NCBI RefSeq assembly: GCF_019670105.1 | Contig: NZ_AP023032.1 | Location: 3,342,972-3,406,971, forward strand | Origin: Agarivorans albus | GTDB lineage: Bacteria; Pseudomonadota; Gammaproteobacteria; Enterobacterales; Celerinatantimonadaceae | DNA length: 64,000 nt | Direction: 5' to 3' | Part shown: positions 6,283-17,634 of the stretch, piece after piece | Layout: the number at the start of each line of letters is the position of its first letter | How positions within the stretch are numbered: the stretch's first letter is position 1 | Position numbers and translations under genes: made by a program | Notes under the pieces: model-generated | The model's database searches: none | The model's input: the letters and a program-made list of their open reading frames with translations, nothing else | What the model was told of the DNA's origin: nothing

Positions 6283-6678
6283 ATGACAATGCTTAACCCC
6301 ATTTGGCTCAAACAAATATTCGCGACATTAGAAAGCGAACACCCTCAGCAGTTTTTTGAACATGTGAGTGATTCAGTCATCTGGGAAGTAACCGGCTCCC
6401 ATCCACTTGCTGGCATCTATCATTCGAAACAGGCGTTTATTAACGGGACAATCGCTAAGTTAAATGAGGTACTTAATGCTCCTTTAAAACTTAATTACTT
6501 ATCGAGTATTTGTGGTGAAAATAGCGCGGCGGTGGAACTAATTGCTAATTCAACCACCAAGGCAGGCAAGCCGTTTAACAACCGCTATTGCTGGGTATGT
6601 GAGTTTGAAGATAAGCAAATCGTTAAAGTTAGAGCCTATCTAGATTCTGCATTAGTAGCTAATACCATCAAGCAATAA
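6283..6678 (+). CDS. SnoaL-like / ketosteroid-isomerase-type NTF2-fold protein
   Basis: 131 residues of the NTF2-like fold. Features are a WLKQIFATLESEHPQQFFEHVSD helix, the strand VIWEVTGSHPLAGIYHSKQAF in which the SHPLAG-Y-SK motif is common in SnoaL-like proteins, and the C-terminal strand pair RYCWVCEFEDKQIVKVRAYLDSALV. The ligand or reaction cannot be told. It is monocistronic, starts at an ATG after AAGGATGACA, and ends inside a strong terminator. Confidence 0.8.
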   Translation: MTMLNPIWLKQIFATLESEHPQQFFEHVSDSVIWEVTGSHPLAGIYHSKQAFINGTIAKLNEVLNAPLKLNYLSSICGENSAAVELIANSTTKAGKPFNNRYCWVCEFEDKQIVKVRAYLDSALVANTIKQ

Positions 6679-12125: not shown

Positions 12126-13625
12126 TCACTTCTGAGTTTGATACAAGGCGACTCGCTGCTCCAGCGAAAGCATGGTATTAGCGACTTTCTCAGCGGTGTC
12201 GGCAAGCAACTGGCTTTGCTCAATTAACACGGTATTTTTATCTCTTATCTCATTAATACTTTGTTCTATCTGGTTACAAGCATCGGTTTGTTCGGTGGTG
12301 CTATTAGCTATTTGGGTATTCACATCGCGCATATCACTTACGCTCTGATTAATCTGAGAAAGAGTACTACCACCAGACTCAATTTTGGCTTTAGATTCAT
12401 CGGAATACACCAACCCTTTTTGCATTGAATCCACCACTTGCGAAGCGTTGGTTTGCAAGGTATCGATGATTTGATTAACCTCTCCAGTCGATTGCTGGGT
12501 TCTGGCTGCCAATGCCCGCACTTCATCAGCTACTACCGCAAAACCGCGCCCTAACTCGCCTGCACGGGCGGCTTCAATGGCTGCATTTAAGGCCAGCAAA
12601 TTAGTTTGTTCCGATATCGCTTTAATCACTTCGATAACAGCATTAATTCCCTGAACATTTTCGTTAAGTTGGCTGGTATAAACTTCCGAATCGCTAAGCA
12701 AGCTATTTAGTGTTTGCGTAGCAGCTACCGATTCGTCTACATCTTTTGAACCAGACTGAATTTGCGTCTCTACAGATTCCGCCGCATTTGCCGCATTGCT
12801 GGCATTGTCAGACACGTTACGCGCCGAATGAGATAACTGCACAGAGGCGCTAGCGACAGAATCACTTTGCTGCATTTGCTGCATAACAATTTCTTTGGTT
12901 TCGCTACTTTGCTGGTTTAGCCCACTCACTAAATCATTTATATCCACAATAGATTGTTTTAAGTCGCTAAACAGCTCATTGAATTCGGTTATTAAAGTAT
13001 TAAAGGCAATCACCGTGGGGTGCTCAGTATTGCTGGTAATAGTGGCAGTAAGGTCTTTATTTTCGGCCAACTTATCGACGGCCAAAATAACAGAATTCGA
13101 CACCTTCGCATCCTTAGCCATGTTGATTGCGTAAAAAATCAGTACCCCGCTTTCTACCACCACAAAAGCTGCGTGCACAAAAGCCGTTCCCCAGGAGCAA
13201 CCGGTGCTATACAAAATCACTGGTATACCGCCCAAGCTCGCATCATTTAACTGCAAAGCAGTAAACGCCAAGTGATGTACTGCAATTAAGCCCGCTGCAG
13301 CCACCACCGGTAACCAATCTTTGTAGATCAATACAAACGCCAAGGCGGCAAATATATGAAAATGCATTTCTAATCGGCCCAGTTGGGCCTGAATCATTAC
13401 CATGGAGTACACCATCAGCAACATGGCATTTATGCAAGAAGACAAGCGAGTTCCGCGCATATACGTGTAGTTAAGCAAGGCAACAATAGAGATGAGCACC
13501 GACATGGTTAGCGCAAAAGAATGGCTTGCGTAACCAATAGGTACCAGCAGCCCTACTACCGGTAAATGAGCCAACAGAATATACAGCACCTGCTTGTCGG
13601 CTAGCTGTGCGGAGTTAGAAATCAT
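12126..13625 (-). CDS. Methyl-accepting chemotaxis protein with a histidine-rich multi-pass membrane domain
   Basis: 499 residues. The N-terminal ~170 residues form about six hydrophobic segments with almost no periplasmic loop, so there is no classical extracytoplasmic ligand domain. Histidines lie in or at the ends of these segments: H20, H35, H88 and H90 (EMHFH), H117-H118 (AVHHLA), H151. A HAMP-like linker (~170-225) leads into the signalling coiled coil, with the highly conserved hairpin tip [19 protein letters not shown]...[13 protein letters not shown] at ~349-383. The start codon overlaps the stop of the upstream Sco-like gene by 4 bases (ATGA), indicating translational coupling. It should steer flagellar taxis; the membrane His set suggests bound metal or haem. 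That is inference. Confidence 0.88.
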
Positions 13626-14206
13626 AATAAATCACCTTGTTGCAATAACTTAAAATCGGTAACTACCTGGCTAATATCAAGGTTTTGCTGGGTATACACC
13701 AAGCTCACTTCACCTAGAGGATTAAGCAGGTACAAGTATGCTGAATGGTCAACTACTTGCTGGTCGAAACTGGTTGAGACGTAACCTGGAAAGCGTTGTG
13801 AGACCTCGATAGATTGCTGAAAATCAGCAACCTGACGAAACTCCACCTTGTTTAACATCGCAGAGCTAAAGGTCTGGTGAGGGGCAGACATCACCAAATC
13901 AATATACAAAAACTGGGCGGCCTGTAATGCCGCTTCATCGGCTAAGGCTGCTAGATTGAGTAACTGGCGAGGGCAAGCTTGGCTACACCCCTGGAAGCCC
14001 AAAAACAAATAGGTATATTTGCCTTGGTAATCATTCAGCTCACCCTGCTGATTTAGCAAAATATTGTAAGCCTGAGCTTGGCTAAGTTGCCCATAAAAAT
14101 CGCCAGTTTGGGAAACTGGTTTTACAAATGGCAACGCAAAAGCAAACATAGCTGGGCAAACAAACAGCAAAAGTGCCCTAAATTTAACGAGATACTTGTT
14201 CATCAT
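13622..14206 (-). CDS. SCO1/SenC-like thioredoxin-fold protein
   Basis: 194 residues with an N-terminal signal peptide or anchor (hydrophobic 10-26). The core follows the Sco family: [21 protein letters not shown] carries the C-x3-C-P motif (C74, C78) and [15 protein letters not shown] carries the conserved His154. These three residues bind copper in Sco proteins, or do thiol chemistry. Sco genes usually sit beside cytochrome oxidase genes; here the partner is a chemoreceptor and no oxidase gene lies nearby. The first two codons are both ATG, so the start may be 14206 or 14203. Confidence 0.85.
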
Positions 14207-16269: not shown

Positions 16270-16392
16270 CTAAGTAAGGGTTTGTTGACTCTAGTATTAC
16301 GTCACACTATCGCCAGAGATTAGGCAGGTTTACACATCTTTACACTGCAGCTGTTAGTTTAAAAAAAGGAATTTTTAAGGTACACGTCAGTG

Positions 16393-17634
16393 ATGATAAA
16401 ACAGTTTACGACTCAACTTGGTTTGGTACTTTTACTCAGTGCTTGTGGTGGCGGTGGTGAAACAAGCTCAAGTGAAGATAATACAAAAGTTGCCCCTCCT
16501 ATCACCGAGCCAGAATCGGCGCTAAACTTACCCGAAGCGCATTTTAATTACGCCAATATTGCCCTACCCACTCACTACACTGAAAACAACTTTCCGGCGC
16601 AATCTCAGTTTCAACATGCCGCCATCGAGTTTGACAATACACCAGTAGACAACCCCGTTACCGATGCTGGCGCCACCTTAGGCCGAGTACTGTTCTACGA
16701 TAAAAAGCTAAGTGCCAACGGCACCACTGCCTGCGCATCTTGTCACTTAGCGGAACATGGCTTCTCAGACCCGCGAGTGCAAAGCATTGGTTTTGATGGC
16801 GAACTAACCCGCCGTCATTCAATGAGTATTGTTAACGCGCGTTTTTACTTTAGTGGCACGTTCTTTTGGGACGAGCGAGCAGCAACTTTAGAAGAACAAG
16901 TGCTTATGCCATTTCAAGATCCGATAGAAATGGGGCTGATCCTCGCAGAACTAGAAGAAATAGTCTCCAACCAAACTTACTACCCTGCACTGTTTAACGA
17001 TGCCTTTGGTGATGAGAGCATTTCCAGTGACCGCATTGCTAAAGCCTTAGCCCAATTTGTAAGAAGTATGGTAAGTACTACTGCCAAATACGATGTAGCC
17101 AGAAGTGAGGTGCTATCACCACGTGTTGATTTCCCAGGTTTTAGCGCCCAAGAAAACCTGGGTAAAGATCTCTTCTTGTTACCAAGAGAAAATGAAAATG
17201 GCGATAGTGCCAATTGCGCGGGTTGCCATGTTAGCGAAGCATTTGTAGGCCCAATACCCAATGGCCCAGTACTTAGAACTACCGCCACGGTAAATGGACT
17301 AGATGCGATATCCTCCGATGATTTAGGTATTGCAGAAACAACCGACAATAGCAACGACAGCGGAAAATTTAAAGCGCCTTCACTGCGAAACATCGCTATT
17401 CGTCCGCCCTATATGCACGACGGCCGTTTTGCCAACTTAGAGCAAGTGATAGATCATTACAGCAACGGTATTCAACTACACCCAAACCTAAGAGCACCAC
17501 TGTTAGACTCAAATGGCCAAGCCTTCCAATTCAACTTTAATGAAGAGGAGAAGCAAGCTCTCATCGCCTTCTTAAACACCCTTACCGACCATGAGATGTT
17601 GGCCGATGAAAAATACAGTGACCCTTTTAATTAG
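16393..17634 (+). CDS. Di-haem cytochrome c peroxidase / MauG-family lipoprotein
   Basis: 413 residues from ATG 16393 (a GTG just before it is less likely). A lipoprotein signal ends in LLSAC, with Cys at residue ~18, so the protein is membrane-anchored on the periplasmic side. Two c-type haem motifs are present: CASCH (ACASCHLAEHGFSDPR, ~residue 115) and CAGCH (NCAGCHVSEAF, ~278). The C-terminal RPPYMHDGRFANLEQVIDHY is typical of bacterial cytochrome c peroxidases and MauG-like enzymes, with the Met or His distal ligand region. It probably reduces H2O2 or oxidises a protein or small molecule. No cytochrome maturation genes lie nearby. Confidence 0.9.
   Translation: MIKQFTTQLGLVLLLSACGGGGETSSSEDNTKVAPPITEPESALNLPEAHFNYANIALPTHYTENNFPAQSQFQHAAIEFDNTPVDNPVTDAGATLGRVLFYDKKLSANGTTACASCHLAEHGFSDPRVQSIGFDGELTRRHSMSIVNARFYFSGTFFWDERAATLEEQVLMPFQDPIEMGLILAELEEIVSNQTYYPALFNDAFGDESISSDRIAKALAQFVRSMVSTTAKYDVARSEVLSPRVDFPGFSAQENLGKDLFLLPRENENGDSANCAGCHVSEAFVGPIPNGPVLRTTATVNGLDAISSDDLGIAETTDNSNDSGKFKAPSLRNIAIRPPYMHDGRFANLEQVIDHYSNGIQLHPNLRAPLLDSNGQAFQFNFNEEEKQALIAFLNTLTDHEMLADEKYSDPFN

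Follow-up and report, generated by a model that had tools for sequence, protein, structure and literature searches.

The Sco-type protein and the chemoreceptor that are encoded side by side in the window (the whole 64,000-nucleotide stretch of Agarivorans albus DNA analysed here) form one widely conserved unit. The present analysis also revealed that one receptor residue, Cys143, tracks the presence of the Sco; the first-pass annotation of this DNA had named His residues only. The explanation that we consider the best, with slightly less than even confidence, is a Sco-receptor unit in which a copper site around Cys143 would tune a His-based receptor.

The Sco and chemoreceptor genes

The Sco gene (13622..14206, minus strand) encodes a protein of 194 aa, and the receptor gene (12126..13625, minus strand), which encodes a methyl-accepting chemotaxis protein (MCP) of 499 aa, starts 4 bases inside it. 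The first-pass annotation had described this overlap, seven His in the sensor part of the receptor and a lack of oxidase genes nearby. The ORF coordinates confirm the overlap (13622-13625), the seven His were found again in residues 1-190 (positions 20, 35, 88, 90, 117, 118 and 151), and a Pfam scan of 16 of the 17 main ORFs located at about 5-24 kb of the window (all but the ORF 6283-6678) detected no haem-copper oxidase gene. The nearest redox protein found to the pair is a di-haem cytochrome c peroxidase or MauG-type protein (CCP_MauG, 173 bits), encoded about 2.2 kb away (16390-17634, plus strand); CCP_MauG is absent from the large neighbour clusters obtained in a census of the 5-kb neighbourhoods of 77 related loci. 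The best named match, Agarivorans sp. Toyoura001, shows 81% over the sensor, in a search from which the own record of the strain was possibly excluded.

The Sco matches the Pfam family SCO1-SenC (PF02630) with 32.4 bits, above the curated cut-off of 22.8. The closest solved chains are those of mitochondrial SCO1 (E 2.2e-5), and the protein can be aligned with human SCO1. The Cys of its CxxxC motif, C74-x3-C78 (13985-13987 and 13973-13975, minus strand), and its distal His, H154 (13745-13747, minus strand), align with the CxxxC and with the His of the VDHS of SCO1, which we take to be copper ligands. The protein carries the marks of the SCO1/SenC family (Pfam family, CxxxC and distal His) and is predicted to bind copper; its family and the hydrophobic stretch at its N-terminus suggest a periplasmic location. 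The partner Scos of related receptors keep the first Cys in 66 of 69 cases, the second in 67 and the His in 66, and only truncated or decayed copies deviate.

The receptor-linked Scos constitute a branch of their own, apart from the PCuAC-adjacent Sco of the same genome. A single change on the tree separates 64 of them from 17 other Scos; this tree comprises the linked Scos except five short or decayed ones and, from 12 checked genomes, the non-linked Scos that had a locus and were caught by the profile (L174 and L175, for example, are not among them). Each of these 12 genomes (12/12) carries at least one further Sco. The non-linked Sco of the window genome reaches 114 bits compared to 32.4 bits for the receptor-linked one, and its gene adjoins that of a PCuAC copper chaperone, the usual company of oxidase assembly. 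Because of this separate branch and of the location of the other Sco beside PCuAC, oxidase assembly is probably not the task of the receptor-linked Sco.

The receptor is identified as an MCP by its signalling domain (residues 281-461; 12243..12785, minus strand; MCPsignal, PF00015, 133 bits). No Pfam or NCBIfam model covers its N-terminal 190 residues or so, and no Pfam-described ligand-binding domain, which is usual but not obligatory in MCPs, was found in the receptor. A comparison of 77 sensor relatives with Pfam gave stray matches only (best E 0.0019, each in three members at most), and the PDB provided no clear fold match for the sensor. The AlphaFold2 prediction (77 sequences; mean pLDDT 90.3, pTM 0.85) gives residues 1-189 (13059..13625, minus strand) as a membrane sensor domain of six helices (2-27, 35-56, 60-80, 87-101, 104-126 and 145-189). 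The predicted outside loops 27-35 and 126-145 contain 0.01 K/R per sequence and the inside loops 56-60 and 101-104 contain 1.62 and 1.17, respectively; loop 80-87, which is outside by the predicted topology, is mixed (0.94 K/R and 1.03 D/E per sequence). According to this model, the outer half of the membrane would harbor H88 and H90 at the start of helix 4 (H88-F-H90, 13356..13364, the predicted outer end of this helix), H117-H118 in outer helix 5 (13272..13277), H151 in outer helix 6 (13173..13175) and H20 in outer helix 1 (13566..13568), together with Cys143 (13197..13199), which immediately precedes helix 6 in a predicted outside loop (all on the minus strand).

Conservation of the pairing

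The survey of genomes for neighboring Sco and MCP genes, which had been proposed with the caveat that the pairing might be unique to this strain, showed that it spans many genera. Pairing was defined as the presence of a Sco gene upstream of the sensor gene in the same orientation, at a distance of -150 to 600 bases. This Sco was detected (E 1e-10) in 9 of the 197 genomes of the order sample, in all nine with the receptor gene as the next one. In one of the nine, Neiella marina (L009 and L077), the receptor gene shows an in-frame stop and its upstream Sco is intact; the receptor copies of two related Neiella species are unbroken. A Sco gene directly precedes the sensor gene in 57 of 80 named relatives, the best of a total of 219, and is degraded in two of the 57 (L070 and L082); since the search started from Sco-paired sensors and the best 80 were kept, this proportion is biased to paired close relatives. 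Three loci being left out, the paired members of this set include 19 Marinobacter, others belonging to Saccharospirillum, Oceanospirillum, Marinobacterium, Neiella, Thiomicrospira, Thiomicrorhabdus, Methylophaga, Amphritea and Neptuniibacter, among other genera, plus one Sulfuricurvum.

Less biased pairing rates come from the class and phylum samples. In the class sample, 293 of 369 genomes carry some Sco and 24 carry the sensor, with a Sco just upstream at 8 of 26 sensor places (one of the eight being decayed). In the phylum sample, the sensor was detected in 61 of 398 genomes and a Sco was found beside it at 5 of the 30 places examined as loci, out of 64 listed. Since the sensor occurs in just 24 genomes of a class sample where Scos are present in 293, and yet the two adjoin at 8 of 26 places and in 57 of the 80 best relatives, their adjacency is more than chance would give. 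The 4-base overlap is more frequent than any other spacing (25 of 69 paired rows). Furthermore, in the neighbourhood census, the Sco is the widest-shared neighbour (51 of the 77 loci, 22 genus labels). The next cluster includes 28 loci (24 Marinobacter and four other labels), and the other large clusters are found in Marinobacter alone (three clusters of 25-26 loci) or under at most three labels.

The outputs of seven relatives were scanned. The Sco-paired ones include two MCPs with HAMP or PAS (L078 and L095), a plain MCP (L015), a hybrid histidine kinase (L036) and a PAS protein running into a HisKA domain at the locus end (L014), and the two unpaired ones are MCPs (L122 and L126). The hybrid kinase and the PAS protein reaching HisKA are two Sco-linked sensors of one genome (G413).

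Association of Cys143 with the Sco

Of the Sco-paired sensors, 66 of 69 have Cys143, compared to only 7 of 58 unpaired ones. These counts derive from a set of 129 rows, two gapped rows being dropped; 17 locus ids, corresponding to duplicated or nearly duplicated entries, fragments and broken genes, had been removed from it, whereas it retains near-identical Agarivorans rows, and the same species can figure twice via the two collections. A Pagel-type comparison of dependent and independent evolution, made on a quick tree with a midpoint root and a simple optimiser, indicates correlated evolution of Cys143 and the Sco (LR 44.3, p 5e-9), the same test giving p 0.013-0.073 for H90, H20, W145, Q81 and R84. 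The fitted rate of Cys143 loss is 0.045 with a Sco and 3.1 without. Strict independent pairs on the starred (well-supported) branches number eight, with 4.3 for and 0 against the association (p 0.0625-0.25, above 0.05).

The genus Marinobacter shows the same association at a finer scale. Of 124 genomes searched, 50 carry the sensor, and 50 of the 51 sensor places were used (L119 was left out). Cys143 is found in 26 of 26 paired sensors versus 1 of 24 unpaired ones. On the Marinobacter trees, the Sco changes 10-11 times and Cys143 changes 9-11 times. Strict pairs give 2.7 for and 0 against on starred branches (three pairs, p 0.25-0.5) and 4.9 for and 0 against on the careful tree (five pairs, p 0.0625-0.125), the outlier L247 being excluded from the careful-tree and position-141 analysis and from the ranking of columns. 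The residues that replace Cys143 vary (A, H, V, G, L, P and T), as expected of separate events. Among the 77 columns conserved in 25 or all of the 26 paired rows, the least kept in unpaired rows are 143 (at the top), 141, 126 and 147, each kept in one to four of 23 rows compared to 10 for the next column, and all four sit in or beside the predicted outer loop. The same neighbouring genes surround 18 of the 19 named Marinobacter loci that are paired and 10 of the 13 that are not; most of these loci therefore represent one genomic place with and without the Sco. Sco remnants of 38 and 27 residues were detected upstream of two unpaired receptors devoid of Cys143 (L075, which recurs as L215, and L230, respectively).

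The association has exceptions in both directions. Three Sco-paired sensors (L015, L017 and L025) have Thr or Val at position 143, showing that the Cys is not always needed. Seven unpaired sensors (L064, L068, L073, L086, L090, L113 and L114) retain Cys143; three of them (L064, L086 and L090) cluster with paired relatives, a pattern expected from a recent loss of the Sco. Two Chromatiaceae loci, L070 and L082, were counted as paired with a truncated or degraded Sco, the receptor of L082 having YY in place of HH. Together with L086 and L090, they could constitute a decay series, since the Sco neighbour of these four Chromatiaceae is truncated, degraded or absent. As unpaired receptors mostly have full-length frames, the Sco seems inessential to the receptor. 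In a distant group (L140-L144), a Cys lies at the other end of the loop (about 138-139) and no Sco was found upstream.

Proposed mechanism and alternatives

In the explanation that we tentatively prefer, both genes would make up a single sensing unit, whose receptor combines, judging from its sequence and the structure prediction, a sensor of six membrane helices with a signalling rod for chemotaxis. The repeated joint loss of Sco and Cys143 suggests that the Sco acts on a site comprising Cys143 at the outer face of this sensor. Contact between Sco and receptor would take place at the outer loop, with Cys143 as the acceptor ligand or thiol, and the Sco, through its kept Cys-Cys-His, may give copper to, or take copper from, Cys143 and nearby His. 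The occupancy or redox state of the site would then be passed via helix 6, which is predicted to continue into the cytoplasmic rod, and would shift the signal from the receptor to CheA.

The residues found in receptors without a Sco bear on the nature of the exchange. In Marinobacter, position 141 is a His in 20 of 23 unpaired rows and a Tyr in 26 of 26 paired ones; His141 is common to one large clade and changes seven times, and was therefore gained fewer times than the row count suggests. In the whole set, at least one His lies within loop 127-144 in 4 of 69 paired versus 34 of 60 unpaired sensors, and 32 of the 60 unpaired ones have neither C143 nor H141. Without a Sco, a Cys ligand requiring a chaperone might thus be exchanged for a chaperone-free His ligand, at position 141 or elsewhere in the loop. 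Because a His near position 143 replaces the Cys as a traded metal ligand would, we favor copper over a pure thiol relay.

Such a relay, in which the Sco would reduce Cys143 or form a mixed disulfide with it and the receptor would read the periplasmic redox state, copper being secondary, appears rather unlikely to us, and the same estimate includes a variant with an inter-subunit disulfide between the Cys143 of a receptor dimer. It would account for Cys143 being bound to the presence of the Sco and mostly gone without it, and a thiol-disulfide activity has been proposed for the Sco homologue PrrC (in a reference cited in the consulted part of PMC9147068). However, a pure thiol exchanger would not need the distal His that the partner Scos keep in 66 of 69 cases, and the His often present near position 143 when the Cys is missing forms a metal-ligand pattern. 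A second family of neighbours, DUF6436, provides arguments on both sides. It resembles thioredoxins (weak match, E 0.0018) and has a CxC and a C-terminal CxC that are invariant in seven aligned rows, which suits a thiol relay. Above the cut-off, it was detected in 12 of the 369 class-sample genomes, and 9 of the 12 genes lie beside distant sensors of the same family (L019, L021, L022, L027, L028, L032, L033, L034 and L035; L179-L187), six upstream, two downstream and one with an intervening gene; the other three (in G357, G360 and G468) are not beside a sensor, and the loci of 11 weaker matches, below the cut-off, contain none. Nevertheless, five of these DUF6436-neighboured sensors (L019, L021, L022, L027 and L032) have no Cys at position 143. 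Taking both families together, a Sco or DUF6436 neighbour is found at 17 of 26 sensor places of the class sample (one Sco being decayed), and DUF6436 may be a second partner of the sensor.

The proposal that the Sco loads copper, or aids the loading of haem, into a conserved His core that would itself be the sensor site was the main one put forward by the first-pass annotation, and we now consider it improbable. The His on which it relied are largely conserved, as it required: an alignment of 77 rows (the window and 76 of the 80 named loci, L082 with its YY being left out) shows no variation at H88, H90, H117, H118 and H151. This does not hold for H35, present in only 20 of 65 paired rows. In a broader set of 65 paired and 38 unpaired rows, H88 and H151 are each present in 103 of 103 sensors, H117-H118 in 64/65 paired and 38/38 unpaired ones and H90 in 64/65 and 23/38, respectively; H20 is found in 61 of 68 paired versus 22 of 59 unpaired rows. 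A core of H88, H117, H118 and H151, all but invariant and predicted to lie within the outer half of the membrane, could form a sensor site. However, these four His are kept in 24 of 24 Marinobacter receptors without an adjacent Sco (50 of 50 sensors of the genus, H90 occurring in 49) and in all 38 unpaired rows of the broader set, distant sensors included. The core is therefore independent of the adjacent Sco, although it could still be loaded by a Sco from another genomic location.

That the Sco is merely co-transcribed and serves another periplasmic cuproprotein or an oxidase, the receptor sensing something unrelated, is very improbable: Scos are best known for oxidase assembly and we only infer the contact between Sco and receptor, but the tree separates the linked Scos from the others, they accompany sensors with different outputs, and residues of the receptor itself change with the Sco.

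The pair could be one case of a general device, found in Pseudomonadota and beyond, with a six-helix His-rich membrane sensor, varied outputs (chemotaxis, PAS or histidine kinase), an interchangeable periplasmic thioredoxin-fold partner (Sco or DUF6436) that would supply the input, and an outer metal ligand alternating between Cys and His. We regard this generalization as possible but doubtful; if it is true, the outer ligand would need the Sco as a chaperone when it is a Cys but not when it is a His.

Comparison with known systems

No description of a Sco-chemoreceptor pair was found in the open PMC literature, considered mostly through titles and the starts of abstracts and without preprints. 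In the portions consulted, three papers (PMC11237659, PMC8218464 and PMC12394494) contain "SCO family protein" and "methyl-accepting chemotaxis" apart from each other and describe no pair, and PMC6548844, PMC12617631 and PMC11687729 did not lead to a paper on such a pair either.

Within the SCO1/SenC family, the window Sco shares the CxxxC and the His but is a weak member, on a separate branch tied to receptors. A periplasmic partner protein that feeds a chemoreceptor is known from Tar and maltose-binding protein. By comparison, the partner here is of the thioredoxin-fold metallochaperone type, and a membrane bundle takes the place of the periplasmic ligand-binding domain of Tar.

The nearest copper chemoreceptor found is McpR of Caulobacter, where a Cys and a His are also at stake: according to the available part of the report, Cys75 and His99 are important for the coordination of copper as well as for copper chemotaxis (PMC10579534). 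The same part describes McpR as cytoplasmic and names no Sco partner (PMC10579534), whereas the window sensor is predicted to be in the membrane and comes with a Sco gene. Its six predicted helices and membrane-like charge pattern set it apart from a cytoplasmic sensor of the McpR type.

The nearest system overall is RegB/RegA (PrrB/PrrA) with SenC (PrrC), which it resembles by the link between a Sco homologue and a redox regulator. RegB is a membrane kinase with a quinone-binding heptad; we did not notice such a heptad in the window sensor, which is an impression and not a sequence comparison. The outputs differ, RegB/RegA combining a histidine kinase and a transcription factor whereas the window receptor ends in MCPsignal, which places it outside the RegA type. 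As in RegB/SenC/RegA, the Sco gene is linked to the sensor gene in the 57 paired loci among the best 80 of 219 relatives. In the consulted part of PMC9147068, the genes of Sco proteins go together with those of the redox regulators RegB/RegA, and SenC is co-transcribed with the redox regulator, binds copper and resembles thiol-disulfide oxidoreductases; it also serves the cbb3 oxidase, and a transfer of copper from SenC to RegA is thought unlikely (PMC9147068). The window Sco lies away from oxidase genes in the scanned ORFs, is apart from the PCuAC-side Sco and has its presence tracked by one receptor residue. Overall, these features suggest a device, not studied so far, that would sense a metal or redox state, with copper, haem and redox as candidate inputs, and would assign a function to an unnamed membrane sensor present in 61 of 398 phylum-sample genomes and to DUF6436. 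To our knowledge, it is not settled whether the Sco associated with RegB/RegA is a signal carrier or an oxidase builder only; with the pair described here, the question whether a Sco carries a signal becomes directly testable in a swimming cell, with one point mutant and one deletion.
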